NCBI RefSeq assembly: GCF_024609325.1
Contig: NZ_JANHMQ010000003.1
Span: forward strand, 1 to 64,000
Origin: Geothrix fuzhouensis
GTDB taxonomy: Bacteria; Acidobacteriota; Holophagae; Holophagales; Holophagaceae
Direction: 5' to 3'
Length of the DNA stretch: 64,000 nucleotides
Both the position numbers and the translations under genes were made by a program. The notes below the pieces were generated by a model. The model was not told the origin of the DNA. It made no database searches and saw only the letters and a list, made by a program, of their open reading frames with translations. Positions 6,709-52,515 of the stretch are shown here, in pieces (the first letter of the stretch is position 1; the number at the start of each line of letters is the position of its first letter).

Positions 6709-6724
6709 TCCGCAGTCGGTCACC

Positions 6725-6758
6725 CATAAGAGCGGGCCCTTCGGGGCCCGTGCTTATG
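6725..6758 (+). terminator. Strong hairpin after receptor 1
   Basis: CATAAGAGCGGGCCC and GGGCCCGTGCTTATG form a 15-bp stem (with one mismatch) closed by a TTCG tetraloop, 16 bases after the stop. Confidence 0.85.
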
Positions 6759-7127
6759 TCCGTCGCAGTAGGTCAAAGTTTCCTTGTTAGGCCTGGTCCA
6801 CCCATCCGCTGGGACTTACTTGGATAAAATCGCCCACAATAGATTACACTCCAGAAATCACCCGGCATCGTAAGCCGATACACGCTGTTCGAAATTCAAG
6901 TTGTGATGCCGTCTCGACCGATTCGGTTCCCATCTTTCCGCAAGAATTCACAAAAATTAACACCCCTCGCAATACAATGGCTCCATCATCAATCTCGGAT
7001 CTTTCTCTTTCTACTGCCTTCTGTCACACCCTCTGCCCGGGCAAATCCCCGTGCTCCACGAGGGGTCACAGATGCTTTTTTCACCACGGGGCCGCACCTG
7101 TCCGGCTCTGGTTTCCTGGAGGATGCT
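6759..7127 (+). promoter_or_regulatory. Long leader of receptor 2
   Basis: About 370 bases with no convincing gene, although an in-frame extension to 6903 exists. The stretch 6930-6980 is AT-rich and contains TTCACA and TACAAT, a possible but poorly spaced promoter. A hairpin (CCCCGTG/CACGAGGGG, 7047-7065) is followed by a T6 run at 7075-7081, suggesting attenuation. CTGGAGGATG precedes ATG 7128. No known riboswitch motif was recognised. Confidence 0.35.
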
Positions 7128-10013: not shown

Positions 10014-10026
10014 GAACTGCCGCTCC

Positions 10027-10058
10027 AAAGAAAGAGGCCCGCAAGGGCCTCTTTCTTT
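10027..10058 (+). terminator. Strong terminator after receptor 2
   Basis: Perfect 14-bp stem AAAGAAAGAGGCCC / GGGCCTCTTTCTTT with a GCAA tetraloop, 13 bases after the stop; the descending arm is T-rich. Confidence 0.9.
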
Positions 10059-10335
10059 ATGTACTAAGAAATATCGATCGAAAGGACTACCCCTGTTTAT
10101 GCCTCGCAACTTGAGGGCCTGTCTCAGCTCCAGAATCAAAATTGTTTGTAATGTTCTTGGAACCTGGCCTATGCTTTCGACACTCGTCCCCCCGATCTTT
10201 GGCTGTCCTCCGATGTCGCACCGCCACCGCCGCAGATTCTGCGGCGGGTTTGCTTTCCCCTTCCTGTACTCACATCTTGTCGATTTTACACTAGCACCCT
10301 GCGGCTCTGCCGCCTTCCCCCCAAAAGGAGTTTCT
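10059..10335 (+). promoter_or_regulatory. Leader of receptor 3 with attenuator-like hairpin
   Basis: No gene seen. TTGTAA and TATGCT about 18 bases apart (near 10145-10175) are a possible promoter. A perfect 9-bp hairpin (CCGCCGCAG-ATT-CTGCGGCGG, 10227-10247) followed by GTTTGCTTT looks like an attenuator or leader terminator. AAAAGGAG at 10323-10330 is the ribosome site for ATG 10336. Confidence 0.4.
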
Positions 10336-13300: not shown

Positions 13301-13449
13301 ACGTGTTCAACCTCTTCAACGCACGCTACGCCACCAACCAGTACCAGCAGGCCACGGACCAGGGCGCCAATCCCGACGTCCGCTACGGGGCTGCCAGTGC
13401 CTGGCAGGTCGGCCGCCGCTACCGGTTCGGCGTGAAGTTCCAGTTCTAA
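10336..13449 (+). CDS. Oar-like TonB-dependent receptor 3
   Basis: Outer-membrane receptor of 1037 residues. ATG 10336 is fixed by AAAAGGAG six bases upstream and a typical signal peptide ending AHAQ. Domains: carboxypeptidase-regulatory (about 30-110, AVSGSVTDAKGAPVAGATVR), plug (about 130-240, ENSYVVDGLSTTN) and a beta-barrel ending FGVKFQF. The plug matches receptor 1 more than receptor 2 (both carry the NDPSIGG/NNPSVGG block before the VDG motif). It probably imports or binds large organic ligands through TonB; nothing nearby identifies the ligand. Confidence 0.93.
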   Translation: MNRILTRLGFTAAAIVAGSGIVAHAQTATTGAVSGSVTDAKGAPVAGATVRLTSTQTTRQAVTGADGNFRLGLMNPGAWTVEVTKSGFQKITQNITVLVNQTQPVNFKLAGEAATVVEVLGTTATVDTTTTQTGLVTSMDNLSAIPKGRDMSTIAMLAPGVVTGGMPGTNDPSIGGGSAAENSYVVDGLSTTNTARGYQGASLVTDFIDQVEIQTGGFKPEFSALGGVINAITKSGTNAFKGSAWATWDAIGIQAVPKRNEYFKQDPPNSRYDLGAEVSGPIIKDKLFFFLGVDGAKTETNESNNLPNLSGLRNGKQTIDNVQVIGKINWYLTQDQQITFSANINDGKDDFPNQYPGTLGNAQLGRNRKDTVQNFVLNYDWNINPSLFLSAKVGTTEYKTTIDPTDTTDVRVTDYQWEQNGPGFNSGDPNALSGLPFVRGGAGYYVSEDKTKTTQAKVDLSWFVGNHNMKFGLSQLVSKYSEIAATSGGERVSINSGASFRGLNRQFLHTNATVKAIINAVYAQDTWDVGAGVKLMYGFRFETQDQRDLHDRSFMKFDKFSDYVQPRLGFTWDVNQDGKTKISGNYATYFEQIPQRMAIRVYANETYLRYNYSASNSSYNNTTGAYTYGATPSSIVDYGTPFSFDPIAEGTKLPKRSEYILGVDHTFASGWTAGVHAKYRELKDPMEDMVFTDQYGNPYDEGPAIVLDAAGNPQYGAGAAVIGNPGAFQQWRPNSRSMTNVLLGQGITTNNYGINILDYYNPATGLFTVQNTGYEKAGNKYSSVDFTLDKKTDRETFSFSYTWSRLEGNYEGVVSSSNGQADGNITASFDYFPYVGYGLLPNDRTHVVKLFASHRFDFFGGDLNVGFNWTYQSGTPNSLWDDGSTTNGYAPGYDTAHQYYDAAGHPVVANSDTAFNTDSNWSGGSVGSGDFNGAGGSHKFLDIGFYGDAVAANGKQGDAGRSPALNNVDMHLDWVYKIGKRYRLVPSVDVFNLFNARYATNQYQQATDQGANPDVRYGAASAWQVGRRYRFGVKFQF

Positions 13450-39305: not shown

Positions 39306-39509
39306 ATGCCCTACGTGAACATCCGCATCACCCGTGAGGGCGCCACCGCCGAACAGAAGGCCCGGCTCATCCAAGGCGCCACCCAGCTCCTGGTGGACGT
39401 GTTGGGCAAGAATCCCCAGACCACCGTGGTGACCATCGACGAGGTGGACCTGGACAACTGGGGCATCGGTGGGGAGACCATCACCGCGCGGCGGAAGCAG
39501 GGGAAGTAA
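39306..39509 (+). CDS. 4-oxalocrotonate tautomerase-family protein
   Basis: Protein of 67 residues. It has the catalytic proline directly after the initiator methionine (MPYVNIRI), an EQKARLIQGATQLLVDVLGK helix and the VDLDNWGIGG hairpin typical of this small tautomerase family. It probably acts as a hexamer or dimer on keto-enol substrates; the true substrate is unknown. It sits 30 bases after the DNA glycosylase gene. Confidence 0.9.
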   Translation: MPYVNIRITREGATAEQKARLIQGATQLLVDVLGKNPQTTVVTIDEVDLDNWGIGGETITARRKQGK

Positions 39510-39604
39510 CTCCCGTCCCTTGTGGATCCGGGGAGGAGTCCTCATACTCAGGATCCGCTTCAACTGAACCTTCGAGGGGGGGAAGAAGAAGCCGCTCGAC
39601 GCAT

Positions 39605-39996
39605 GGGGGTGACCGGTTTCGACAGGTCGTGATCCAGGTGTTCGGTGCAGGCGGGGGTTGGACGGCTGGCCCCCTTATCAAGCCGCCCAAATCAAACTGC
39701 CAACGATAACTTCGAACTGGCTCTCGCTGCCTAGGGCAACCTAGGCTCCGAGCGAGTCCTCGGGATCTCTGGGTACCGAGCTCGTTAAACCTCCGAAAGG
39801 GTGGCTTCGGCCTGCCGGACGGAGGTACCAGATAGGCCGCCGCGACGCCCCCTGACAGCGGCCGAGATAAGGGGGCACACGTCCCGAGCGGCTCGTCCGT
39901 TCCCCGCCGGGAGGTTTCAAGAGCGGACCAAGCCTGTGGAAGAGCCGCCATCCGGCATGTCTTGGACGTGGGTTCGAGTCCCACCACCTCCACCAA
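39605..39996 (+). ncRNA. ssrA: tmRNA (ssrA)
   Basis: The 392-nt gene starts with GGGGGTGACCGGTTTCGACA and ends with a T arm (GTGGGTTCGAGTCCCAC) and CACCTCC-A-CCA; the ends pair as an alanyl acceptor stem. The tag reading frame at 39699-39734 encodes ANDNFELALAA and a TAG stop. tmRNA rescues stalled ribosomes and tags the nascent protein for proteolysis with SmpB. Encoded CCA and a strong terminator directly follow. It is a one-piece, non-permuted tmRNA. Confidence 0.97.
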
Positions 39997-40029
39997 AGAA
40001 AAGCCCCCGCCCGCGGGGGTTTTTCTTTG
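39996..40029 (+). terminator. tmRNA terminator
   Basis: AAAGAAAAGCCCCCG / CGGGGGTTTTTCTTT forms a stem of about 14 bp ending in a T run, immediately after the CCA end. Confidence 0.92.
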
Positions 40030-40060
40030 GTGGAATTGCCGCTGCGGGCAGGTAGGCGCC

Positions 40061-40093
40061 CTCCGGGCAGGACTTGATGTCCTGCCCGGAGGA
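40061..40093. other. Perfect 14-bp hairpin between tmRNA and the Met-rich lipoprotein
   Basis: CCTCCGGGCAGGAC / GTCCTGCCCGGAGG with loop TTGAT. It lies in the 250-bp gap between two convergent units. No gene is seen there. Confidence 0.5.
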
Positions 40094-40223
40094 TCAGCGC
40101 CGTGCCCAGCAGCGACACGCCAAGTGCCTCCCAATCGGGGCCTTATTTTGTGGTGGAAATAAGAAAGGCGGGAGTCGAAATCGCAGAAGGGCTGGCAGGC
40201 TGACTCGGGCCCATCCTGGGCGC

Positions 40224-40257
40224 CGGCCCCATTCGCCAGTCCTGGCGAATGGGGCCG
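40224..40257 (-). terminator. Hairpin after the Met-rich lipoprotein gene
   Basis: A 16-bp near-perfect palindromic stem (CGGCCCCATTCGCCAG / CTGGCGAATGGGGCCG) with a two-base loop, 22 bases after the stop at 40280. Confidence 0.6.
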
Positions 40258-40279
40258 AACCATCCCTTGAGGACTGCCG

Positions 40280-43033
40280 TCAGTGGACGGTCACCCAACT
40301 TGAAACGAGCTTGTAGGTGCCGGCGTCATAGAACAGCAATCCTCGGACCTGGACATCGCTGCCGTTGGTGATGGCTCCGAGGCCCTGCAGCTGAGTCCCC
40401 GCCTGCTGGTAGACCTGGATGGTGGTGGTCCCGGCGAAGGAGGCAAACGCCGAATCGGAAGGCAGGGTCAGGGTGAAGGTCGCCTGGGAGCCGCTGGCGG
40501 CGTAGGCCGACACCACGCCGTGGAGTCCCTGCTGTTCAAGGCGGACTTGGCTGGCGGTGAGGGTGCCGAGGCCGGAACCACCACTCATCATGCCGCCGCC
40601 CATCATGCTGCTGGTGCTGACCACTGCGAGCTTCTGGCCCTTGACGAGGCTGGTGGGGCCGAAGGCGGGGGTGAAGGGCAGGTTGGTGAGGTCGACGTCA
40701 TCCGCATCGTAGCTGTAGGGAACGGAAGCAGGCAGGGCGACGGTGATGGTGCCGCCGATGGAGGACGCCATCATGCCGCCGCCCATGCCGCCATTGGCCA
40801 CCAGAGTCAGCTGGGTCGGGGGATTCCCGGTGATGGAAGTGACGAGGCCACTCCCCATCATGCCGGTCGAGTCCGTGCCCATGTATTCCACGCGCTGCGC
40901 TAGGTAGGAACCATCAGCCTGAAGCGTCGCATCCACGGCCACCATCATGCCGGTGCTCAGCATGCCCATCCCGGTCAGGCCGGCACTGGGGAACTGGGTG
41001 GCGCTGGTCGTGGTGAAGGTCGTCGCCTGGACGCCCATCATGGACCCCATCGTGAACTGCGGCCCGGCCATGCTGGACACCAGACCCACCTGCTGCTGCA
41101 TGCCCCCTTGCCAGGGATTCGCCCCGTTCGCCGCCACGGCAGAGGTCATGGCCGTCAGGGTGGGCGTGAAGGCGACGTTGCCGGAAGCATCGATGGAAAC
41201 CGATGAGGCCATGTTCATGTCGAAGTTCAGGGCCATGGGCGAGGTTCCCACGGTCAGCGTCGGGCTGAAGGGAACCATCGCCGTGAAGGGCCCGGCCATC
41301 GTCTTCTGCGTATAGGTGTGAGTCGTTGGGTCCACGTAACCCATGGACACCCCTGAAAGGGTGATGGCGGCCTGAGTGTAGGAGCCCTGGGGCACGTTCA
41401 GGGCGGAGATCGGCTGCATCGTGCCCATGGTCTGCATCATCTCCACCGGCGCGGCCGTGGGCATCACGTTCACGGTGCTGCCATCGGTCTTCGTGAGTAG
41501 GATCGAGTTGACGGTGTTCCCGAAGGCCATGATCCAGTCAGCGGGCGCGTCGCCCAGGCCCACCTGCATGGCCGTGGAACCTGCGACTGGAGGTGCCACG
41601 GTCACGGCGGCACCCGGTTCAATGACCGTTGCGACGAGTTTGTAGGTTCCGGCGTCATAGAAGAGCAGGCCACGGGTCTGGATGTTGGTTCCATTCGAGA
41701 CGGTCGTGAGTCCGCGAAGGTCGGTCCCCGCCTGCTGGTAGACCTGGATGGAGGCGGCGCCCGTGAGGGTGGTGAAGGCCGAATCGGTCGGCAGGGTCAG
41801 GGTAAAGGAGGCCTGGGAACCGCTGGAAGTGTAGGCCGACACGGAGCCGTGGAGGCCCTGCTGTTCAAGGCGCACCTGGCTGGCCGTCACGGTCCCAAGG
41901 CCGCCCATCATGCCACCCGCCATCATGCCGCTGCCGCTCACCACTTCCACCTTCTGGCCCTTCACCAGATGGGTGGCATCGAAGGTGGGCGCGAAGGAAA
42001 GCCCCGTGAGATCAACCCCATCCGAATCGATGTTGTAGGGGACCGAGGACGGCAGCGAGACGGTGATCGTCCCAGCGATGGAAGAGGCCATCATGCCGCT
42101 GCCCATGCCGCTGTTGGTGACCAGCGTGAGTTGGGTCGGGGGATTCCCGGTGATCGAGGAGACCAGGCCGCCGCCCATCATGCCCGTCGATCCTGTGCCC
42201 ATGTACTCAACCCGCTGGGCCAGGTACGAGCCATCCGCCTGCATCATGGCATCCACCGCCACCATCATGCCGCTGCCCATCATCCCCATGCTGGTCATGC
42301 CCGAGCTGGGGAACTGAGTGCTGCTGTTGGTCGTGAAGGTGGAGGTCTGCATCCCCATCAGCGAACTCATGGTGAATTGGGAACTGGACTGGCTGGTGAC
42401 GCTGCCCACCATGTGCTGCACGCCGCCCTGGAAGGGGTTGAGCGCGGTGCCGGACACGGACCCCATGGCGGCCGTCATGACCGGGCTGAAGGTGACGTTC
42501 CCGAGGCCATCAATGGACACCGAAGAGGCCATGTTCATGTCGAAGTTCAGGGCCATGGGCGAGGTCCCCACGGTCATGGAAGGACTGAACGGCACCGTGG
42601 CCGTGAATGGGCCCGCCATCGTCTTCTGGGTGTAGCTGTGCGAGACAGGATCCATGTAGCCCATGGACACGGATGCAACCGTGACCGTGGCCTGGGTGTA
42701 GGTCCCCTGGGGCACCTTCATGGCCGAGACCGGCTGCACAGTGGCCATCAACTGCATCATTTCCATCGGGGTGGACGTGGGCACCACATTCACCGAAGTC
42801 CCATTGGAATTCATGAGCGAGATCGAGTTCACGGTCATTCCGAAGGCCATGATCCAATCCGCCGGAGCATCACCCAGGCTCACCTGGATGGTTGTGGCCG
42901 TGGGCGTCGGGGCAGGAGAAGACGTCCCGGATGAGGCGGATGAGGAACTTCCGCCGCCACAACCCATCAAGCCGAAACCGCCGACCAGGAGAAGTGCTCC
43001 TGCGGCCAACCGGGTCCTGTTTCGAAGCAACAT
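40280..43033 (-). CDS. Methionine-rich, internally duplicated lipoprotein (DUF4382-DUF5666-like, two copies)
   Basis: Protein of 917 residues. Start 43033 follows AGGAGG and gives a lipoprotein signal (LLLVGGFGLMGC, cysteine about residue 25), so it is probably anchored in the outer membrane or periplasm. The mature part has a Ser-rich linker and then two approximately 435-residue copies, each beginning SLGDAPADWIMAFG (DUF4382-like) followed by DUF5666-like beta strands ending RGLLFYDAGTYKLV. About 74 methionines (8%) lie in GMM, MGM and SMM clusters, in both copies. Function unknown; methionine clusters suggest soft-metal binding or oxidant scavenging. A sigma-54-type promoter lies upstream. 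Homology is inferred by eye. Confidence 0.82.
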   Translation of the reverse strand: MLLRNRTRLAAGALLLVGGFGLMGCGGGSSSSASSGTSSPAPTPTATTIQVSLGDAPADWIMAFGMTVNSISLMNSNGTSVNVVPTSTPMEMMQLMATVQPVSAMKVPQGTYTQATVTVASVSMGYMDPVSHSYTQKTMAGPFTATVPFSPSMTVGTSPMALNFDMNMASSVSIDGLGNVTFSPVMTAAMGSVSGTALNPFQGGVQHMVGSVTSQSSSQFTMSSLMGMQTSTFTTNSSTQFPSSGMTSMGMMGSGMMVAVDAMMQADGSYLAQRVEYMGTGSTGMMGGGLVSSITGNPPTQLTLVTNSGMGSGMMASSIAGTITVSLPSSVPYNIDSDGVDLTGLSFAPTFDATHLVKGQKVEVVSGSGMMAGGMMGGLGTVTASQVRLEQQGLHGSVSAYTSSGSQASFTLTLPTDSAFTTLTGAASIQVYQQAGTDLRGLTTVSNGTNIQTRGLLFYDAGTYKLVATVIEPGAAVTVAPPVAGSTAMQVGLGDAPADWIMAFGNTVNSILLTKTDGSTVNVMPTAAPVEMMQTMGTMQPISALNVPQGSYTQAAITLSGVSMGYVDPTTHTYTQKTMAGPFTAMVPFSPTLTVGTSPMALNFDMNMASSVSIDASGNVAFTPTLTAMTSAVAANGANPWQGGMQQQVGLVSSMAGPQFTMGSMMGVQATTFTTTSATQFPSAGLTGMGMLSTGMMVAVDATLQADGSYLAQRVEYMGTDSTGMMGSGLVTSITGNPPTQLTLVANGGMGGGMMASSIGGTITVALPASVPYSYDADDVDLTNLPFTPAFGPTSLVKGQKLAVVSTSSMMGGGMMSGGSGLGTLTASQVRLEQQGLHGVVSAYAASGSQATFTLTLPSDSAFASFAGTTTIQVYQQAGTQLQGLGAITNGSDVQVRGLLFYDAGTYKLVSSWVTVH

Positions 43034-43111
43034 GTCTTCCTCCTGGGTCGAATGGGGAACGCATCTCTTGGATGCCGTGAAGGCCAGCCCTGGTACGTCA
43101 ATCAAGGACAG

Positions 43112-43127
43112 TTCAAGAGGCGTGCCA
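43112..43127 (-). promoter_or_regulatory. Sigma-54-type promoter of the Met-rich lipoprotein
   Basis: On the minus strand the sequence is TGGCACGCCTCTTGAA: a perfect -24 box (TGGCACG), four-base spacer, and TTGAA where the consensus -12 is TTGCA. It is about 80 bases upstream of ATG 43033 and nearly identical to the site at 50173-50188. Confidence 0.7.
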
Positions 43128-43161
43128 ACTGTATCTAAACGGGTTACGCCAATGGCTGGGG

Positions 43162-43200
43162 CAATCTGACCCGAACATTCCACCGCTTCGGGTCAGATTG
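43162..43200. repeat. 14-bp perfect inverted repeat between lgt and the Met-rich lipoprotein
   Basis: CAATCTGACCCGAA / TTCGGGTCAGATTG with an 11-base loop. It lies 35-75 bases upstream of the sigma-54-type promoter and 69 bases after the lgt stop. It could terminate lgt or be an enhancer site for the NtrC-type regulator. Confidence 0.6.
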
Positions 43201-43268
43201 TCCCGGTGCTGGAAGCCCACCTGGCCCCTTGGTCCCACCTTCAGCGGGTGGCAGCGCACCGAGGCGAC

Positions 43269-44138
43269 TCATGGGCGATGAGCCCCGGTGTGATCCATCG
43301 CTCTTGCATACATCGCACCGCTCACCATTCCGAACGCGATCAGCCCCAGCTGAAGCGCGGTCATCCCAGCCCAGACGGTGACATCCCGATCACCGTGGAG
43401 AAATTCAAGACCAAACCGAAGGAAGGAATAGCCACCAAGATGGAGCCAGAACACCCTCGACCAAGGGCCATTCTTGGCGGTCAGAGTACGCATCAAGAGG
43501 ATGACCAGACCCGCCAGTGCCAGGTCTCCAAGAGCTTCGTAAAGCTGGACGGGGTGAAGCGGGACGGTGCGCAATGCTGAAGGGTCGGTGAAGCCTTTGG
43601 CGACACTCCAGATCCAGGCCTCGCTATCGACCTGGTGGTTGGCCACAAAGCTTGGAAGGGTGACCCCGAATCTGGGCAGGGATATTCCCCAGGGCAAGCT
43701 GGTAGGGGTGCCCCAGGCATCCCCATTCAAGAAACAGCCAACCCGTCCAAGGGCCTGACCGATGAGCACCGCTGGACTGGCCACGGCGAAGTAGTGCCAG
43801 AAATCCACCCGCTCCTTTTTGAAGCGAATGAAGGCCGCCAGGACTCCGCCTGCGATGCCCCCCGTGATCGATAAACCCCCCTCCCAGAACCTGAAGAAGC
43901 TCAAAGGATCAGCAGGGATGGCCTTGAAGTCCCAAAACAGAAAATGAGAAATCCTGGCCCCAAGGATGGCCCCCACAAGAATCCATATGAGGTTGTCCAG
44001 GAAGAGTTGGGGACTGAGCCTTGCCTTCCTTAACCGGAGGCTGACCAGCCAAGAGCCCCCCAGGATGCTGAGCAGGAAATAGAATCCTTCGTAGAAATAG
44101 AAGACTTTGAAACCAAGGTTCAGATGGATGGGGAACAT
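43269..44138 (-). CDS. lgt: Prolipoprotein diacylglyceryl transferase
   Basis: Protein of 289 residues. Inner-membrane enzyme that attaches diacylglycerol to the lipobox cysteine. Signatures are GARISHFLFW, the GGLSITGGIAGG loop, the invariant LGRVGCFLNGDAWG (about residues 130-143) and HPVQLYEAL, with about seven transmembrane helices. Start 44138 (MFPIHLNLG) is the usual family N-terminus; upstream in-frame sequence is a shadow. It sits between a secreted DsrE-like protein and a large lipoprotein, which may be its client. Whether this is the only lgt in the genome cannot be told from the window. Confidence 0.93.
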   Translation of the reverse strand: MFPIHLNLGFKVFYFYEGFYFLLSILGGSWLVSLRLRKARLSPQLFLDNLIWILVGAILGARISHFLFWDFKAIPADPLSFFRFWEGGLSITGGIAGGVLAAFIRFKKERVDFWHYFAVASPAVLIGQALGRVGCFLNGDAWGTPTSLPWGISLPRFGVTLPSFVANHQVDSEAWIWSVAKGFTDPSALRTVPLHPVQLYEALGDLALAGLVILLMRTLTAKNGPWSRVFWLHLGGYSFLRFGLEFLHGDRDVTVWAGMTALQLGLIAFGMVSGAMYARAMDHTGAHRP

Positions 44139-44227
44139 GCAGGTTGCCCTCGCAGCAGCTGGCAAGATCGACTTTGAACCCATTCGACCTGGGCACGGGA
44201 AGCCTGGAAGCAACGTGGAAATGCGGG

Positions 44228-44761
44228 TCAGGGTTGGATCTGGACGTAGCCCTGTTGTACGAGATCGATGAGGCGCCCCACGGCCCCCGTATTCACCTTC
44301 ACGCCTGGCAAAAGATCCTCGTTGCCCCAGTTGTGGGCTTTCATGGAAACGGCGCACTCCTCGATCTGGACCCCCTGCTTCTGCAGCTCCAGCACAAGTC
44401 CCTTGTAGGGGTTGCCCGTATTGACTTGCCGGTAACCGTTGTACGCCTGGTCATTGAGGATCAGGTAGGCAGCATCTCCATGAAAAAGCCCGATGATGTC
44501 CCCTTCCGTATGGAGTTCCTTGAACCGCTTGGCCAACAAACCCATGTATTTCATGCCGACCGGCATGTCTCCGCTGAAGGCCAGGTGGTCCAGATTGAAG
44601 ACCACGTGGGCCTTCTTCAAAGTGATCGGAACATCAATGTGGATCGCGTGAGGAGCCTTGGCATCCACCTTCTCCTCCGCTCGAAGAAATGCCCCTCCAG
44701 TCGACAAGACGACAAGAAGAGAGGAAGCGAGCAGCCTGGTTATGAATGCAGGGTGTCTCAT
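44228..44761 (-). CDS. Secreted DsrE-family protein
   Basis: Protein of 177 residues with a signal peptide (LLASSLLVVLSTGGAFLRAEE) and one DsrE/DsrF-like domain (KAHVVFNLDHLAFSGDMPVGMKYM...FHGDAAYLILND...GVQIEECAVSMKAH...VNTGAVGRLIDLVQQGYVQIQP). The cysteine in IEECAVSM is at the position used for sulfur transfer in DsrE-like proteins. GAGGAG precedes ATG 44761. A periplasmic thiol or sulfur-handling role is plausible. It lies 90 bases before lgt in the same direction. Confidence 0.85.
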   Translation of the reverse strand: MRHPAFITRLLASSLLVVLSTGGAFLRAEEKVDAKAPHAIHIDVPITLKKAHVVFNLDHLAFSGDMPVGMKYMGLLAKRFKELHTEGDIIGLFHGDAAYLILNDQAYNGYRQVNTGNPYKGLVLELQKQGVQIEECAVSMKAHNWGNEDLLPGVKVNTGAVGRLIDLVQQGYVQIQP

Positions 44762-44787
44762 GATGAGTCTCCTCAGGCAGGACGCAC

Positions 44788-44804
44788 CGCAGGGTGGTAC
44801 CCAA
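44788..44804 (-). promoter_or_regulatory. Possible sigma-54 -24/-12 element before the DsrE gene
   Basis: TTGGGTACCACCCTGCG on the minus strand fits the GG-N10-GC core of sigma-54 promoters, with the predicted start about 16 bases before ATG 44761. The outer bases are non-consensus, so this may be chance. The 44850-44890 stretch further upstream is very AT-rich. Confidence 0.3.
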
Positions 44805-44905
44805 GGATGCTGTTCAGGCATTGGATGTTCTGAAAGATTCTTTTGTTCCAAAATGGTTATATTATTATAAATACCTATTTTGATTGCACCTCTGGATACC
44901 GAGGA

Positions 44906-45604
44906 TCAGTGATGCATGGGCCCGGATCCGGAAGGCATCCCCTTCGGCATGGACCCGGGTGACATGGCCCCAGGACCCATGGTTCCATCCGGGAGCATCC
45001 CCTGGGTCCAGGCCTTCTCGTCGAAGCCTCGCATGGAGATGGGCTGGATCTGAGGCAGCAGGTCGGGTCCGAACCTAGCCCATTCACCGGCCTTGACCCG
45101 GACCGGCTCCGCATGGACAGCCTTGGGAAGGACTTCCACCACCCCCTCGAAGACGACCAGCGTGGACTTCCCTTCCTTGCCCACTTCGACCCCGTACCGG
45201 GTCCCGCGCACGGCCAGGAGGGCACCCGGAACTGCGACCTGCCGCTCCTGCCGGTTGCCAGCGACGAGGGCCTGGAAGAAGGCCTTGATCCGCCCCTTCT
45301 CGACGACGAGCAGAACGCCGGGTTCTCCGCCCGCGAGCTTGACCTGGGTGTTCGCATACACCTCGAATCGCGACATGCGTTCGGGGACGGCGATCACCGC
45401 CCGAGCCCACCAGCCCGTCGTCACCCCATCCCCGGACCGGGCTGAATCACCCTTGGCGACCTTGACCGCTTTACCCTTCTCACCTCCCGGCAAGCGGTAG
45501 ACAGACCGCTTGGTCTCTTCGAACCGGTAGGTGAGCGTGTCGGGCACGGGTGCTGGAACCTGGAGCAGAGTGAACATCAGCGGGGCAAGCATGGGAATCA
45601 TCAT
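44906..45604 (-). CDS. FecR-domain protein with Met-rich C-terminal tail
   Basis: Protein of 232 residues. It begins with a hydrophobic export segment (MLAPLMFTLLQVPAPV) and then a FecR domain (about 45-170: VKVAKGDSARSGDGVTTGWWARAV...VAVPGALLAVRGTRYGVEV...VVFEGVVEVLP). The last 35 residues carry a Met/Gly/Pro tail (GMLPDGTMGPGAMSPGSMPK...), with methionine every 3-6 residues, like the other proteins of this cluster. The start overlaps the response-regulator stop by ATGA. It is probably periplasmic; no FecI-type sigma factor is present, so it is not a standard FecIR pair. Confidence 0.85.
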   Translation of the reverse strand: MMIPMLAPLMFTLLQVPAPVPDTLTYRFEETKRSVYRLPGGEKGKAVKVAKGDSARSGDGVTTGWWARAVIAVPERMSRFEVYANTQVKLAGGEPGVLLVVEKGRIKAFFQALVAGNRQERQVAVPGALLAVRGTRYGVEVGKEGKSTLVVFEGVVEVLPKAVHAEPVRVKAGEWARFGPDLLPQIQPISMRGFDEKAWTQGMLPDGTMGPGAMSPGSMPKGMPSGSGPMHH

Positions 45605-46980
45605 TCACCTCCCTCAAGATCTTCCATAGCGTCACCTTCAGTCCGCCTGAGCTTGCGGGAAAGGGTCTTGCGCTCGATGCCCAGGATCCGGGCGGCTTCG
45701 GTCTTATTGCCCTTGGTGTGAGTCAGCACCGAAAGGATGTAGGTCCGCTCCATCTCTTCCAGGGAGACGAAGGGCTCCTGGAAGCTCATGTGAGTGAACA
45801 TCGCGGGGGACCCATGTGGCTCCACTGAGGTCACGGCCCCCAGGATCTTCCGGAGCACCACCGCATCTTCAAGCGCCCCGGTCTCGATGATCATCCGCCG
45901 GATCACATGCCCAAGTTCCCGGATATTCCCTGGCCACGGGTGCGCCGCCAGAAGGGCAAGCACGTCCTTCGTCGCAGGCCCCGACTCTGGCTGGCCGAGT
46001 TCGCGATGGAAGCGCTGCTGGAAATGGGTGACCAAGGTCGGGAGGTCGGAGATGCGGTCCTGCAAAGCCGGGATGGAAATTTCGTAACCGGCCAGGCGGT
46101 AGTAGAGATCCTGCCTGAACGTCCCCGAAGCGACCATGGCTTTCAGGTCCCGATGGGTTGCGGCGACCACCCGAACGTCCACAGACTCTGGCTTCTCCGC
46201 GCCGAGGGGCAGGACCAGCCCGTCCTCCAGGAACCGGAGGAGCTTGACCTGAAACGTCGGAGAGATCTCCCCGATCTCATCCAGGAAGACTGTGCCGCCA
46301 TTCGCCTGAGCCAGGGCACCGCGCCGGTCTGTCTTGGCATCGGTATAGGCCCCTCGCCGATGGCCGAACAGTTCACTTTCGATCAGCGTGTCGGGGATGG
46401 CCCCGCAATGAACGGGAACAAAGGGCCCGTTCGGGTGGGGACCGAACCGGTGGAGCCCCTGGGCCACGAGCTCCTTGCCCGTTCCGGTTTCGCCATAGAT
46501 CAGCACCGGCACTTTCATGGGGGCCACCCGCCCGATGGACTTGTAGACCTCCACAATGCTGGGATGGGAGCCGACGATCATGCTTCCAGGTCCGTCCTCA
46601 GCGCCGGGCAGGACGGAAGGCTGTTCCTTGAGTGCGGCCCGTACCCGCTCCAGCATGACCTCAAGGTCGAAGGGCTTCGCCAGGTAGTCGAACACACCGT
46701 CCTTCATCGCCTCCGCGGCCGATTCGATGCTGCCCTTGGCCGTCATCAGGATCAGGGGAGGCGGATCCGCTTGTTCCCGGACTTCCTTCAGCAGATCCAG
46801 GCCGTTCCCCCCGGGCATGTAGATATCACTGAGGATGAGATCCGGCCGGAACTTGCGGAGTGCCGCACGGGCGGCGGCGTAGCCGTCGGCCCGTTCCACC
46901 CGGTACCCACTCTTCTCCAAGGCCATGGCGACCATCTCTCGAATCGCCAGGTCGTCATCCACGACGAGAATGTGTTTCAT
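45601..46980 (-). CDS. NtrC-family sigma-54 response regulator (GAYTDA variant)
   Basis: Protein of 459 residues: receiver (about 1-120, phospho-acceptor D52 in LSDIYMPGG), AAA+ central domain (about 140-380, Walker A YGETGTGKELVAQ, Walker B GGTVFLDEIGE, arginine finger FRQDLYYRLAG) and a C-terminal Fis-type helix-turn-helix (KTEAARILGIERKTLSRKLR). The sigma-54-contact loop reads GAYTDA (residues 210-215) instead of GAFTGA. It probably activates the sigma-54-type promoters at 50173 and 43112. Its gene lies 7 bases after the CHASE2 kinase and overlaps the FecR gene. Confidence 0.93.
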   Translation of the reverse strand: MKHILVVDDDLAIREMVAMALEKSGYRVERADGYAAARAALRKFRPDLILSDIYMPGGNGLDLLKEVREQADPPPLILMTAKGSIESAAEAMKDGVFDYLAKPFDLEVMLERVRAALKEQPSVLPGAEDGPGSMIVGSHPSIVEVYKSIGRVAPMKVPVLIYGETGTGKELVAQGLHRFGPHPNGPFVPVHCGAIPDTLIESELFGHRRGAYTDAKTDRRGALAQANGGTVFLDEIGEISPTFQVKLLRFLEDGLVLPLGAEKPESVDVRVVAATHRDLKAMVASGTFRQDLYYRLAGYEISIPALQDRISDLPTLVTHFQQRFHRELGQPESGPATKDVLALLAAHPWPGNIRELGHVIRRMIIETGALEDAVVLRKILGAVTSVEPHGSPAMFTHMSFQEPFVSLEEMERTYILSVLTHTKGNKTEAARILGIERKTLSRKLRRTEGDAMEDLEGGE

Positions 46981-46987
46981 GCCAGCC

Positions 46988-48763
46988 TCATTCGGCTTTT
47001 CGGGACAAGTTCAACGGAAGCCGAATCCGAAAAACACTACCACCCCCGGCTCTTTCATCAGCTTCCACGGTCCCACCGTGCCAGTTGACCACTTCTGCCA
47101 CCAAAGCCAGCCCCAGGCCAAGGCCCGGCGCAAGACCCTGGGTGCTTCCACGGGCAAAACGCCCGAAGATCTTCTGCCGTTCCTGAGCGGGAATGCCTGG
47201 TCCCTGGTCTTCGACGTCCAGACACGCGGAATGCTCATCTGCCTTCAAGCGGATCAGAATCGGTGTTTCATCCGGGGAGAATTTGAGGGCGTTGGCCACC
47301 AGGTTTTCGATGACCCTTTCCAGAAGACCCTTGTCCCCCAGAACGTGCAGGTCGGGCTGGATCTCCGTGAAAATCTCGCGCCTGGTGCCAGCCCGCAGGA
47401 GAGCAGCCCGCTCGGTGCAGATGGACGATAGCTCCAACGGCCTGGCATCCCGCGCGAAGACTCTCAGGCGCAGCCGCTCCAGATCGAGCAGGGCATCCAC
47501 CATCTCTGCGAGGCGGGAGGTCTCTGACACCACCATCTGGGCCACCCGGTTCCGTTCGGGGGCGGAGAGGTCGAACTGAGCCAAAAGCTGGGCCAACCCT
47601 TTCACGGAAGTCAGGGGTGTCTTAAGTTCGTGGGCCACCACGCGGCGGGCTTCCGCATCCTGTTTCCGGATCTCGGAGAGGCTCTCTTGAAGCCCTTCCA
47701 ACTCGGCAATGCGTGTCTGGGCGTTGCCCATGGCCAGCTGGGTGCGGCGGGATCTGAGGAATCCCATCAAGGCCCCGACAAGAGCCAGCGCCATCAGGAT
47801 CGTCACGGGGGCCCACTCCAGATGGAGGAATCGGAGCGATAGCACAGCAATCAGGAGCGGCGCCAGGATGACGCCAGGGGCCAGCAGGGGAATCGTGCGA
47901 CCGGGGCGGGCCAGCATGAAGGTTCCCAGCCAGCCCAGGGCCAAGGCCAGCAAGGCATTGGCGAGTGGAGAGGCCAGGTGAAGCAGATCCTTCGACAGGA
48001 TGGCCTCGGCTGAGATCGCCTCCACCATGACACCGGGCTCCGGTGACCCGCCCTGGGAGATGGGAGAGACAAACCGGTCACCCACGCCCGCGGCACTGGT
48101 GCCGATGAAGACGATTCGGCCCTGAAGGATCTCTGTTCCATGAGATTCAAGGACGGCTGCAGCGCTGATCTGCGGGATCGGCCGTGTCTGGAATCCGGGC
48201 CGAAGCATCAGGCCCACCGGGATGGGAAGCCTGGCATCCGCGAGCCGCGCTGCCGCCACGGGCATCGCGGGCAGCACCCTGTCGCCCAGTTGCTTCATGG
48301 AGGCGAACCTCCTGACCACGCCATCCCGATCCAGATCAAAGCTCACATGCCCCGTCGCCGTGGCGCCCAGGACGCGATTCGGTGACAGCCAATGGCCCGT
48401 CTCGTCCAGGCCCGTTGCGATCACGGAGGGCCCTTTCTTCAACGCCTGCGCCAGAAGGTCGTCTCCCTCTCGCGCCTCGGGGAACAAGAGATCCACCGCA
48501 ATGCCCTTCGCTCCAGCGGAAAACACTTGATCCACCAATCGCGCAAGCTGAGCCCGGTCCCAGGGCCAACGGCCCGCCAACCGGATGGCCTCTTCATCAA
48601 TGAGCACCACCGCGACTTTGGAAGCGGGCCTGGAGGGAAGGTTCCTGAGCATGGCATCGCGAACGAGCAGCTCGACCGGAGACAAGGCCCCCGATAATTG
48701 CAGCATGAGCACAAGGGCGGCAGCCAATGCGGGCCAGAGAGACCTCAGAGCACTACCTCCCAT
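46988..48763 (-). CDS. CHASE2-domain sensor histidine kinase
   Basis: Protein of 591 residues. An N-terminal membrane anchor leads into a CHASE2 extracytoplasmic sensor domain (about 25-270, VAVVLIDEEAIRLAGRWPWDRAQLARLVD...GAKGIAVDLLFPEA). Three membrane helices follow (about 275-345), then a HisKA domain with phospho-acceptor H378 in VVAHELKTPLTSVKG and an HATPase domain (NLVANALKFS, DQGPGIP, GLGLGLALVAEVV). It should phosphorylate the adjacent NtrC-type regulator. The signal is periplasmic and unknown. It is 30 bases downstream of the outer-membrane barrel gene. Confidence 0.93.
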   Translation of the reverse strand: MGGSALRSLWPALAAALVLMLQLSGALSPVELLVRDAMLRNLPSRPASKVAVVLIDEEAIRLAGRWPWDRAQLARLVDQVFSAGAKGIAVDLLFPEAREGDDLLAQALKKGPSVIATGLDETGHWLSPNRVLGATATGHVSFDLDRDGVVRRFASMKQLGDRVLPAMPVAAARLADARLPIPVGLMLRPGFQTRPIPQISAAAVLESHGTEILQGRIVFIGTSAAGVGDRFVSPISQGGSPEPGVMVEAISAEAILSKDLLHLASPLANALLALALGWLGTFMLARPGRTIPLLAPGVILAPLLIAVLSLRFLHLEWAPVTILMALALVGALMGFLRSRRTQLAMGNAQTRIAELEGLQESLSEIRKQDAEARRVVAHELKTPLTSVKGLAQLLAQFDLSAPERNRVAQMVVSETSRLAEMVDALLDLERLRLRVFARDARPLELSSICTERAALLRAGTRREIFTEIQPDLHVLGDKGLLERVIENLVANALKFSPDETPILIRLKADEHSACLDVEDQGPGIPAQERQKIFGRFARGSTQGLAPGLGLGLALVAEVVNWHGGTVEADERAGGGSVFRIRLPLNLSRKAE

Positions 48764-48793
48764 GGAACAGTTGTCGAGGTGGAATGGGGAGAT

Positions 48794-49582
48794 TCACGGC
48801 CAGTACACGAAGCCAAGGCCCACGCTGGTTTTCGGGGATCCATCCGTGAGCCCGGCAATGAGGGATGCTTTCATCGCCAGCTTGGGGCTGAGCATCTTGA
48901 ATACATCCAGCGAGAGGTCTCTCGGAGCCTGGGTACCCTCGTAAAGCGCCCCCCGGGCCTCGTATCCGAGGGAGAATTTCGCGGTACTCGTGTAGTAGGA
49001 GAGCCCAACGCCGGCGGTATAGATTCCGTCGCGGGTCGCCGGGGTGCTGGTTCCACTCGCAGACCCACTCTGGATCCACCCCCCGAGCAGATTCAGCTGG
49101 ATCCGATCCCAGCGCTGGTGGATCGCCAGAAATCCTCCCACATCGGCTTTGCCCGTTCCCAGTCCCTTGTCGCTGTTCGCCGTGGGAAGCTTCAAGGCCA
49201 GTCCGCCATCCAGCGCATAGCCGGTGGCCGTCTCAGGGATGAAGCGATGCACGCCCCGGAGCAGGACGTCTCCCACGCCCGAAGCGGAGGCATCCACCCC
49301 GCCGCCCTGGGCGGTGAGGTGGAGCACGGGAACCGTCACATTCAGGTCGAAGGTGGAGGAGGCATAACCGACTGTGCCGTAGGCCAAGTTCAGCTTGCTC
49401 AAGGTGGACGTTCCGAAATCGCCTTGTTTGTGGCCGACGCCACCCTCCAGGTAAAGCGCGGGGTCCTGCGCTGAAAGACAAGTCGAGGCCAGCACCAGGG
49501 CGATCACGCCGCCCACGATCCAGACGGTCCGCCAAAGTGCCCGCTTGCGGGCCTTGACACTGGGTTCACAGCAGTCGTTCAC
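48794..49582 (-). CDS. Outer-membrane beta-barrel protein
   Basis: Protein of 262 residues from GTG 49582, with AGGAG six bases upstream. An uncleaved-looking basic N-terminus (NDCCEPSVKARKRALWR) precedes a hydrophobic signal ending STCLSAQ. The mature part is a run of alternating amphipathic strands (YLEGGVGHKQGDF, LNLAYGTVGYASSTFDLNV, GGLALKLPTANSD, FSLGYEARGALYEG) ending in GLGFVYWP, typical of a 10-12-strand outer-membrane barrel of the phenol-degradation/MetA-like transporter type. Substrate unknown. It lies between the small Met-rich gene and the sensor kinase. Confidence 0.8.
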   Translation of the reverse strand: MNDCCEPSVKARKRALWRTVWIVGGVIALVLASTCLSAQDPALYLEGGVGHKQGDFGTSTLSKLNLAYGTVGYASSTFDLNVTVPVLHLTAQGGGVDASASGVGDVLLRGVHRFIPETATGYALDGGLALKLPTANSDKGLGTGKADVGGFLAIHQRWDRIQLNLLGGWIQSGSASGTSTPATRDGIYTAGVGLSYYTSTAKFSLGYEARGALYEGTQAPRDLSLDVFKMLSPKLAMKASLIAGLTDGSPKTSVGLGFVYWP

Positions 49583-49633
49583 GAGGTGCTCCTACACGGA
49601 TGCGCTTGGCGTTCGTCCAGGACAGGTGAACGT

Positions 49634-50077
49634 TCAGGATTTGACACTGGGCTTGGGTTCCATGGCGGCCAGGGATTTGCCCATGGCCTCCAGTCGCTCG
49701 TTCGTGGTCTTCAGCAGGGCCGCATCCATCCGGCCGTCCCGCATCCGAGCCGCCATGGTCTTCATCATTCCGGCCATGGCGTCCATCATCCTGGACATCT
49801 CGGCCATCGTTTTCGGGTCCCTACCCTGGCTACGCTCCATGGTGCCAGCCATCTTCTCCATCATCTGGTGCATCTGGTTCATCGTGCCGACCATCCCGCG
49901 CATCATCTCGGCCTTCATCATCTGACCGCCCATCATCTGGGAGGCCATCTGGCCACTCATCGACGTGGGTTTCGTGCTCCCTCCCGTCATGCCGCCGCCG
50001 GACATCTGGGCCATGGCGAAACCCGTGCTGAGCAAGCTGAGGGCGAGGGTGAAGGCCGTGCGCGGTGTCCGGATCAT
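49634..50077 (-). CDS. Small secreted methionine-rich protein
   Basis: Protein of 147 residues with a signal peptide (FTLALSLLSTGFAMAQ). About 31 of its residues (21%) are methionine, arranged as MM pairs and MxxM spacings (GQMASQMMGGQMMKAEMM, HQMMEKMAG) in a predicted helical region about 45-115. Such proteins are candidates for Cu(I)/Ag(I) binding or for scavenging hypochlorite and other oxidants. No histidine- or cysteine-based site is visible. First gene downstream of the sigma-54-type promoter at 50173, and likely head of the operon through the barrel, kinase, regulator and FecR genes. Confidence 0.85.
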   Translation of the reverse strand: MIRTPRTAFTLALSLLSTGFAMAQMSGGGMTGGSTKPTSMSGQMASQMMGGQMMKAEMMRGMVGTMNQMHQMMEKMAGTMERSQGRDPKTMAEMSRMMDAMAGMMKTMAARMRDGRMDAALLKTTNERLEAMGKSLAAMEPKPSVKS

Positions 50078-50172
50078 GGGGTGCTCCCAGGGCAGATGGT
50101 GATGGATGGATTTGGAGAGGCGGGAGTCGAACGCCGTGAGTCGCGTTCGGCTGTCTACTCCGAGGTCGGTAG

Positions 50173-50188
50173 TTCAAGGACCGTGCCA
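50173..50188 (-). promoter_or_regulatory. Sigma-54-type promoter of the Met-rich/two-component operon
   Basis: Minus-strand TGGCACGGTCCTTGAA: perfect -24 box, four-base spacer, TTGAA at -12, about 100 bases upstream of ATG 50077. The same arrangement, extended to TTGAAC, occurs at 43112-43127. A dyad GAGTC-N5-GACTC (50220-50234) lies 32-46 bases further upstream and could be an enhancer site. The rest of the 50078-50436 gap holds nothing recognised. Confidence 0.72.
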
Positions 50189-50436
50189 CCTGATTGCACA
50201 GGGGTTATCGACAGCAAGTGAGTCTTGCCGACTCGTTTCCATGATTGAGCGCGTCAGAATGACCCGGACCGAGTCCTTCGTCTATTGTACGAGCCGGTGC
50301 TACAGGCGCCCTGGTCATCGGATATGGATCTCGCCGAAGAGGTGGCCGCCCACCCTGACCCCCACGGGGGCTCTCGGAGAGGGGCACCCGAATCACCTTC
50401 GCTGATGGACCGCTCCATGCCGACCCTGATGCGGCC

Positions 50437-52515
50437 TCAGCTTGATTCGAAGGTGCGGATTTCGAGCAGCGCCTCACCCAGAGTCATCTCATGCTTTTCC
50501 AGCAGCTTGCCAACCAGGTGCTCGGTCAGGGGCATGAGCCCGGCCAGGATGGCCTTCGTTTCGCCATACAGGCGCTCGCTCTGCCCTTCCATGATGCTGC
50601 GGGTTTCCTCGTCCAGGTCAGGGGTGCCCTCGGATCGGTTCTGACTGAGCGCGCCAAAATTGAGGCGGGTCTTGCGGTACATGCCCATCTCACCCACGGC
50701 GTGGTGAAGCAGCTTCGTCACGCGGGTGATGTCGTTGTGGGCGCCGTTGGTGGTGCCCTCCTCGCCGAAGAACAGCTCCTCGTTGGCCATGCCGCCCAGG
50801 AGCACGTGCACCTCATGTTCGATGTCGCCCTTGGTCTTGAGCAGGTTGACCCCCTGCTTGTGGAAGACGAACCCCAGCGCGTTGGTGCGGGGGTTGGCCT
50901 TGAGCGAAATCTTGATGGTCTTCACCTCGGCCAGCATCTGCTCCCAGTTGTCGTGGGTCAGCTTGCGTTCGTGGTCGAGGTCCACCAGGAAGTGACCCCA
51001 CTCATGGGTGGCGATGATGCGGCGGTCGCGCTGGCGTTCCAGGGTGGTTTCGATATTGACGTTGCCCACAAGCACCCGCTCGGCGGCCTGCATCAGGGTG
51101 TCTTCCCCGATCATGCTGCCCGCTTGCACCGCGGTGATGCCGGCTTGATTGACGATGGTCTCCAGGTCCGCGGGGCTGCGGCCCTCGGTCACGGCGACCA
51201 GGTGGCGAAGGTCCAGGTCCGGCAGCACCTTGTCGGCGCGTCGCCCCAGGTAGTGGGTGATGATCGCCAGGCGCTCTTCCTGGTTTGGCATGCGAAAGTC
51301 CACCTTCATCTGGAAGCGGCGCAGCATGGCTTCATCCATCGGCATGGTTTCGCTACTGAAGTTGCTGGCTACGATCCAGATGATCTCGGCTCCGTTTTTG
51401 CTTTGCACACCGTCCAGCACAGACAGGAAGGTGTTCGAGGTATCGTCGTCGAATTTGCGGCGCCCCCCGCGCTTCATGAAAAGATCCTGGGCCTCGTCCA
51501 GGAAGACGATGCAGCGCTTGCGCTTCGTCGCCTGCGCCAGGATGCGAGTCAGCGTGTTCGACCCCCCGGCGACGAGGCCGGTCTCCAGGTTGGCCGCGGA
51601 GTGGAACAGGATCGGCAGTCGAAGCTCCTTGGCCAGGTAGCTGGCCAGCTTGGTCTTCCCGGTACCTGCCGGACCACTGAACATCACATTGAAGGGCTTC
51701 ACGATGCCGTACTCGGCATACTCCGCCCGGCGCTCGTATTGGTCCTTGATCTGGGCCACTTCGGCCTTGATGTCGTCCATGCCGACCAGGTCGTCGATGG
51801 AGCCATGCACCTGCGATGGCTCGATGAATTTGAGCGCCTTGAAGTGGCCCTTGAGCTGCAGGTAGACGAACCCCAGCATGCCCAGTACCAGCACCCCCGA
51901 CAACAGGCCACTGGCGACGGTCAGCCAGGCGTATTTCTCGGACCGCGGACGGGCCCCGGAAAAGCGCACGTCCAGGCGCTCGATCAATCTGAGGTCGCCG
52001 GCGCTGAGCTCGCTGCGCGGGATGAAGACCAGCTTGCCACCCCAGGGCGCGGTGACGGCCTTGTCGGTGAAGATCTTGGTCTCCAGGTCGCTCGGGTAGT
52101 ACGCGTAATACTTGCCGCGCGATTCGATCAGGACCATGCGCTCGGAGACATCCCACGTCAGTGGCTTATAGATCACATTGACCCGCTCGACCGGGTTGGT
52201 TTCCAGAAAGCTCAGCAGCGAGCTGGGGCCAACGACCACGGGCAGGTTGTCCTTGAGCGACCCCACCCCGCCGCCCGCCTGGCCCTCGGCGACCATGGCC
52301 TCGACCTGCCCGGCGAGCGCGGCCCGTTTCTGGGTCAGACTGGAAGAATACAAACCGGCGGCCGTGATCAGGACGACCAAGGCCAGCAGGATGAACATGA
52401 CCACCGGTGGCTGGCCTTCCAACCAGACCAATAGCCGCCCCGCGGACCTTATGACCGCAGACCACAGGCCGGTCGCACCCCGTCCTGTGCCGCCGGGTTT
52501 GGGCGGATGGGACAT
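50437..52515 (-). CDS. FtsH-like membrane AAA+ metalloprotease (divergent, HEWGH)
   Basis: Protein of 692 residues. Two transmembrane helices (about 38-56 and 201-219) bracket a periplasmic FtsH_ext-like domain (about 57-200, KDNLPVVVGPSSLLSFLETNPVERVNVIY). The AAA domain has Walker A GPAGTGKT (K287), Walker B CIVFLDEAQD and a second region of homology ending MLRRFQMKVDF. The M41 domain carries HEWGH (504-508) in place of the usual HEAGH, and GAHNDITRVTKL supplying the third zinc ligand. Start 52515 has a weak AGGT site and follows the small membrane-protein gene by seven bases. It is too divergent to be the housekeeping FtsH; more likely a stress-specific paralogue. Confidence 0.87.
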   Translation of the reverse strand: MSHPPKPGGTGRGATGLWSAVIRSAGRLLVWLEGQPPVVMFILLALVVLITAAGLYSSSLTQKRAALAGQVEAMVAEGQAGGGVGSLKDNLPVVVGPSSLLSFLETNPVERVNVIYKPLTWDVSERMVLIESRGKYYAYYPSDLETKIFTDKAVTAPWGGKLVFIPRSELSAGDLRLIERLDVRFSGARPRSEKYAWLTVASGLLSGVLVLGMLGFVYLQLKGHFKALKFIEPSQVHGSIDDLVGMDDIKAEVAQIKDQYERRAEYAEYGIVKPFNVMFSGPAGTGKTKLASYLAKELRLPILFHSAANLETGLVAGGSNTLTRILAQATKRKRCIVFLDEAQDLFMKRGGRRKFDDDTSNTFLSVLDGVQSKNGAEIIWIVASNFSSETMPMDEAMLRRFQMKVDFRMPNQEERLAIITHYLGRRADKVLPDLDLRHLVAVTEGRSPADLETIVNQAGITAVQAGSMIGEDTLMQAAERVLVGNVNIETTLERQRDRRIIATHEWGHFLVDLDHERKLTHDNWEQMLAEVKTIKISLKANPRTNALGFVFHKQGVNLLKTKGDIEHEVHVLLGGMANEELFFGEEGTTNGAHNDITRVTKLLHHAVGEMGMYRKTRLNFGALSQNRSEGTPDLDEETRSIMEGQSERLYGETKAILAGLMPLTEHLVGKLLEKHEMTLGEALLEIRTFESS

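Follow-up and report, generated by a model that had tools for sequence, protein, structure and literature searches.

In Myxococcus xanthus, the copper-responsive CorSR system consists of a kinase and a sigma-54-dependent regulator with putative sigma-54 promoters, and the curA operon encodes a multicopper oxidase, PQQ_2 and other lipoproteins, CopA and a PF13442 cytochrome c (PMC3707914). In the 'BiofilmReg' operon of Burkholderia, a CHASE2 kinase is encoded together with a secreted FecR-domain protein and a response regulator (PMC5192318). SilE is a small periplasmic methionine (Met)-containing metal-binding protein of a resistance locus, whose proposed action is that of a 'molecular sponge' (PMC5008109). 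Here we describe a Met-rich envelope cassette of the soil/sediment bacterium Geothrix fuzhouensis, located in a stretch of 64,000 nucleotides (contig NZ_JANHMQ010000003.1, positions 1 to 64,000; hereafter the window). A preliminary description of this DNA had named two Met-rich proteins of 917 and 147 residues, a FecR protein with a Met-rich tail, a beta-barrel, a DsrE-like protein, the prolipoprotein diacylglyceryl transferase Lgt, a CHASE2 kinase and an NtrC-type regulator, and all of these genes exist. Our analysis indicates that one shared sigma-54/enhancer regulon very likely covers both Met-rich genes, and copper or silver is probably the signal and target of this envelope response cassette.

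Like CorSR, the window cassette pairs a histidine kinase with a sigma-54-dependent response regulator. In addition, distant loci of this type carry a multicopper oxidase, Met-rich proteins with weak similarity to PQQ_2 and a cytochrome c of the family found with CorSR. However, the domain list given for CorS names HAMP and kinase domains but no CHASE2, which the window kinase has. CorSR also lacks a FecR partner, a Met-rich small protein, a DUF4382 lipoprotein, a barrel and Lgt, and its copper response is known, whereas that of the cassette is a prediction. By analogy, CorSR/curA is the nearest working counterpart: the cassette works like CorSR with a different sensor and different cargo. Given these differences in the type of sensor, the FecR partner and the Met-rich cargo, we do not call it a CorSR member. 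The 'BiofilmReg' operon shares the CHASE2 kinase, the secreted FecR-domain protein and a response regulator with the window, but its regulator is of the CreB/OmpR type, sigma-54 is not involved, its FecR protein carries LysM and its outputs differ. LysM gave no match on the window FecR protein, so the cassette lacks the combination of CreB/OmpR-type regulator and LysM-FecR protein. SilE binds through histidine (His) and Met motifs, whereas the small window protein has 31 Met and 1 His, a comparison made by description. In the literature we found no paper joining sigma-54, copper, two-component, methionine-rich and response regulator, and DUF4382 was mentioned in one paper found, on archaeal glycoproteins.

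The preliminary description had claimed near-identical TGGCACG-N4-TTGAAC promoters at both Met-rich genes. Both are present as exact copies, and a pair of palindromic sites lies upstream of each:

50172..50188, minus strand: sigma-54-type promoter TGGCACGGTCCTTGAAC, 111 base pairs (bp) before the ATG of the Met-rich gene
50220..50234, minus strand: proximal predicted activator site of the Met-rich gene, GAGTC GGCAA GACTC, at -46 from the promoter start
50251..50265, minus strand: distal predicted activator site of the Met-rich gene, GGGTC ATTCT GACGC, at -77
43111..43127, minus strand: sigma-54-type promoter TGGCACGCCTCTTGAAC, 94 bp before the ATG of the lipoprotein gene
43158..43172, minus strand: proximal predicted activator site of the lipoprotein gene, GGGTC AGATT GCCCC, at -45
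43190..43204, minus strand: distal predicted activator site of the lipoprotein gene, GGGAC AATCT GACCC, at -77

Genome-wide, the exact pattern occurred three times, compared to zero for the reversed control. The search for further promoters that had been proposed thus returned both cluster copies, and the sole extra match (C3:246648), which overlaps the start of an mglA-like gene in antisense, was taken as chance. A simple scan found no sigma-70-type promoter in 39500-50600. Related promoters stand in 16 upstream regions from 15 genomes, a set that includes one extra promoter found in genome G035. In these regions the -24 element TGGCACG is near-invariant, the spacer is N4 and the TTG is invariant. 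The promoter precedes the effector operon in most loci with kinase and regulator, and the gene behind it is the Met-rich gene, a DUF4382 gene, a DUF5666 gene or, in G093, a pilin-like gene. Three genomes without the kinase (G001, G002 and G021) have an orthologue of the DUF4382 lipoprotein without such a promoter and, as far as sequence can tell, are a natural negative control.

The -24 element TGGCAC stands at the correct spacing to the -12 element. The consensus dinucleotide at -12 is GC (PMC2725144), but 15 of the 16 regions have GA and the remaining one has GT. Of 37 sites scored upstream of pilA-like genes, most of which belong to the same genus, 26 have A as the -12 letter, and the pilA promoters mostly read TGGCACG-N4-TTGA. 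Since most pilA promoters of the genus share the GA, and rpoN is present and intact in the genome with a recognisable RpoN box, we do not regard GA as counter to sigma-54. It appears to be a lineage trait, and we term the putative promoters sigma-54-type. The TTGA at the cluster and at most pilA promoters suggests that promoter finding with the standard GC consensus would miss sigma-54 genes in the Geothrix group. Two distant loci read TTGC (L162) and TTGA (L164) at -12. A genome-wide count of TTGA versus TTGC behind TGGCAC-N5 was not used as evidence, as most matches lie in coding sequence. The few pilA-like promoters with GC at -12 (among L097-L126) show weaker -24 elements.

At most loci, GGGTC-N5-GACCC palindromes are found at -45/-46 and at -77 to -79 from the TGGCACG start, a separation of ~32 bp or three helical turns; in G011, G026, G093 and G090 the spacing deviates or additional sites are present. 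Each of the 16 loci has at least one site with at least 8 of the 10 consensus bases. In total, 33 sites were observed, compared to a mean of 3.8 (standard deviation 1.9, maximum 11) in 1000 dinucleotide shuffles, an excess that is somewhat flattered as the consensus was derived from the scored sequences, while the fixed positions were not used in deriving it. A promoter with paired palindromes is the anatomy expected of an NtrC-family enhancer, to which the regulator would bind. With promoter and upstream sites conserved in relatives, the proposal of one regulon for both Met-rich genes now has stronger support than the window alone could give. Genome scans with the paired-site pattern alone were unspecific: at up to 3 mismatches every genome was matched, in most cases no more often than by the reversed control. 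Among the matches listed, those with 0-1 mismatch were in G068 and G000, at the cluster. In G068, a perfect-scoring site pair follows the FecR gene (L067, 13241-13287), the cargo is gone and a transfer RNA-like stretch comes next; this site pair without cargo is likely a relic. In G035 (L236, contig C503), the promoter TGGCACGCTCCTTGATGT at 3319 on the minus strand, with paired sites at -77/-45, precedes an operon of PqqD-like, ATP-grasp (ATPgrasp_Ter) and Orn-DAP decarboxylase genes. It is possible that this operon is an extra regulon member that makes a small molecule.

The genes of the cassette are transcribed from the minus strand in the following order:

49634..50077, minus strand: Met-rich protein, 147 residues, secreted, 31 Met (21%)
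48794..49582, minus strand: outer-membrane beta-barrel, FapF/COG4313 fold, 12-13 strands predicted
46988..48763, minus strand: CHASE2 sensor histidine kinase
45601..46980, minus strand: NtrC-type response regulator with receiver (PF00072), sigma-54 AAA+ (PF00158) and Fis-type helix-turn-helix (PF02954) domains
44906..45604, minus strand: FecR-domain protein, secreted, with a Met/His-rich C-terminal tail (7 Met in the last 60 residues, ending GPMHH)
44228..44761, minus strand: DsrE-like protein, secreted, start codon uncertain
43269..44138, minus strand: second Lgt; the other copy is on contig C2
40280..43033, minus strand: lipoprotein of 917 residues, DUF4382 and DUF5666, 8.1% Met, lipobox LMGC, internally duplicated

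The five genes from the Met-rich gene through FecR are separated by 51, 30, 7 and -4 bp. Therefore, the promoter at 50172-50188 probably drives kinase, regulator and FecR as well, which would result in positive feedback. The FecR Pfam score of the window FecR protein (23.9) is marginally below the cut-off of 24. No Pfam or NCBIfam family matched the 147-residue protein. The 917-residue lipoprotein is a head-to-tail tandem duplication of a protein of ~470 residues that is single in most relatives.

Methionine is a property that the cargo and the FecR protein share. Met is conserved better than any other residue of the small protein (82% compared to 55% overall), and its i, i+3/i+4 spacing exceeds that of shuffles (P 0.0005), giving a predicted helix with a Met face; simple MxxM counts were not significant. 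FecR tails contain 5-10 Met where the cargo has 3.7-8.9% Met, and none in G029, G089 and G090, where the cargo has 1.3-2.1%. Without correction for kinship, tail Met and cargo Met correlate with a Spearman coefficient of 0.61 (P 0.016), compared to -0.02 for the FecR body. Distant FecR tails are rich in both Met and His. The methionine bias that had been noted as shared within the window is thus mirrored across genomes. As the tail gains and loses Met together with the cargo, it offers a handle on the signal of CHASE2.

The association with metal genes was assessed with a fixed reference set of CopA-type ATPase, CusA/CusB, CusF-like, YHS and copper-associated cytochrome c sequences. Of 20 kinase loci, 9 had metal genes near by, including three distant loci, compared to 0 of 40 random 20-kilobase (kb) regions of related genomes (Fisher P 1e-5). 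With own-locus queries dropped, 6 of 20 loci remained, against 0 of 40 (Fisher P 8e-4). The neighbours include a CopA-type ATPase and a YHS protein in G017, CusB in G035, a cation efflux pump of the resistance-nodulation-division (RND) type with a P-type ATPase in G075, and CusF-like and cytochrome c genes in G011, G017, G026 and G034. The small Met-rich gene lies near metal genes in 6 of its 8 carrier genomes. Distant kinases from other Acidobacteriota (39-48% identity) adjoin RND efflux pumps, and at L162 promoter and sites are followed by a Met-rich protein gene and then a multicopper oxidase. Kinase and sigma-54 regulator are encoded with copper-handling genes in G017, G026, G035, L162, L164 and others, but not around the window. 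The genus Geothrix came to dominate an enrichment culture amended with copper that originated from a former copper mine (PMC10946571). A CusF-like gene as part of the cassette was rejected: it adjoins the cassette in 4 of 11 family copies and is absent from the window genome. Behind the kinase-free DUF4382 orthologues of G001 (L048) and G021 (L050) lie genes for a DsrE protein and a zf_CopZ protein, with Pfam support at L048, and the zf_CopZ neighbour is a second copper hint for the lipoprotein.

Several observations weigh against copper or silver. The window locus has no metal gene within 8 kb, and Met conservation in the lipoprotein is about average (0.72 compared to 0.70). In the metal-gene tests, several queries came from the same loci, the loci are phylogenetically non-independent and the random regions were partly drawn from cluster-free genomes. 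Furthermore, in genus g23 (G089, G090 and G093) the signalling core lies next to minor pilin genes or goes with cargo poor in Met. The genomic context, including that of distant relatives, favours the capture of copper or silver proposed in the preliminary description, without proving it. With pilin genes beside the signalling core in one lineage, metal is not the sole associate of this core. Copper/silver is the best-supported explanation.

If copper or silver is the signal, the CHASE2 kinase and the FecR protein would jointly sense the metal in the periplasm, with the Met/His tail of FecR as its binding site. The kinase would phosphorylate the NtrC-type regulator, as its domains suggest, and the regulator would bind the conserved GGGTC-N5-GACCC sites, usually two, at 45 and 77 bp upstream of TGGCACG-N4-TTGA. 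By sigma-54-dependent activation it would open a first operon of Met-rich protein, barrel, kinase, regulator and FecR, with positive feedback, and a second one with the 917-residue Met-rich lipoprotein. The Met-rich proteins may then serve the cell as thioether 'sponges' for Cu(I)/Ag(I) in the periplasm and at the outer membrane. The second Lgt would aid lipoprotein anchoring, and the barrel is possibly an exit route. The cassette predicts a concrete regulon in Geothrix, a metal-reducing acidobacterial genus.

The main rival is a surface/biofilm or secretion system, in which the CHASE2-FecR-NtrC core senses the state of the envelope and triggers the production of surface material (FapF-like barrel, lipoprotein, pilins), Met richness being a lineage quirk. 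The predicted model of the barrel (predicted local distance difference test, pLDDT, 83) has FapF as its nearest solved fold, with a match over residues 39-262 (Z 23.0, root-mean-square deviation 2.5, 219 residues); a COG4313 channel follows with Z 21.6. The model shares the 12-stranded FapF/COG4313 fold, at 16-19% identity to these channels, and 8 of 13 barrel orthologues match PF13557 weakly. FapF exports functional-amyloid subunits, other COG4313 channels do not, and the predicted fold alone does not decide function. No other fap genes were noticed among the scanned cluster and neighbour proteins, a scan that was not aimed at fapA-E. In G093, the conserved promoter and both sites lie upstream of FimT-like pilin genes. 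At L066 and L070 of genus g23, the kinase-regulator-FecR core lies by minor pilin-like genes and a large PilY1-like protein, as judged by eye, and the FecR tails have 0-1 Met. The Burkholderia kinase and FecR protein also form a biofilm-regulating operon (PMC5192318), but its regulator is CreB-type and not NtrC-type. A surface system does not account for the enrichment of copper and RND genes, for the multicopper oxidase behind the L162 promoter or for the parallel changes in Met content of FecR tail and cargo, and we consider it unlikely. A further reading is a sigma-54-switched surface metal trap: the FapF-like barrel would export the small Met-rich protein and perhaps display the lipoprotein, copper or silver would be caught outside the cell, and the FecR tail, with the same Met/His chemistry as the cargo and evolving in step with it, would be the metal sensor of the CHASE2 kinase. 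This is rather doubtful. If true, it would provide the first defined signal type for CHASE2, a sensor domain described as having no known signal (PMC5192318).

Scavenging of oxidants, the other function put forward initially, would make Met a sacrificial target of hypochlorite or peroxide that is recycled by an MrpX/MsrP-like reductase. A small secreted Met-rich protein under an inducible alternative sigma factor would fit, and the oxidation and repair of methionine in the periplasm reportedly matter in E. coli under copper stress (PMC9302797). However, a Pfam scan of ~40 cluster and neighbour proteins, in which neighbours were covered non-exhaustively, revealed no methionine sulfoxide reductase or related domain, and the neighbours are metal genes instead. 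Copper/silver is favoured over oxidant scavenging, which seems quite unlikely. That unrelated Met-rich genes carry sigma-54-like sequences by chance is extremely improbable: loose motif matches (up to 3 mismatches) do occur at chance rate within the window, but 15 genomes share the promoter and its upstream sites at corresponding genes, which refutes this in practice.

The kinase is present in 17 of 77 family genomes from 4 genera, and the strain G. paludis SG195 carries the cassette as well. Wherever the contig extends far enough the kinase-regulator-FecR core is constant, usually accompanied by the barrel and a secreted lipoprotein. Of the 77 genomes, 8 carry the small Met-rich gene, which lies beside the barrel gene in all 8 and beside the lipoprotein gene and/or the kinase in 7. 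DsrE has no counterpart in related clusters and is not a conserved part. The window genome and G011 each have a second Lgt copy, in both cases inside the cluster, compared to a single copy in the remaining 12 of the 14 genomes of this genus that were examined; these cluster-borne extra copies rule out Lgt as a chance neighbour. Integrase-like genes lie close to the cluster in G011 and G078 (by eye), which together with the patchy distribution suggests that the cluster is mobile. With two query sequences, no integrase was found in the window.

For the DUF4382/DUF5666 protein, the structure model was too poor to be used (pLDDT 51) and no solved relative was found by sequence. The small Met-rich protein gave only weak matches in the PDB, to designed coiled coils and P450s. 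Over the Lgt and DsrE genes (window 43000-45000) the G+C content is 55-59%, compared to about 62-65% around them, consistent with later acquisition. A transfer-messenger RNA (tmRNA) gene, a type of gene into which islands commonly insert, lies at window 39605-39995, at a distance of 285 bp from the lipoprotein gene's 3′ end. Elsewhere in the window, at 3679-13449, three tandem proteins of ~1000 residues each resemble, by eye, carboxypeptidase-regulatory/outer-membrane-receptor proteins.

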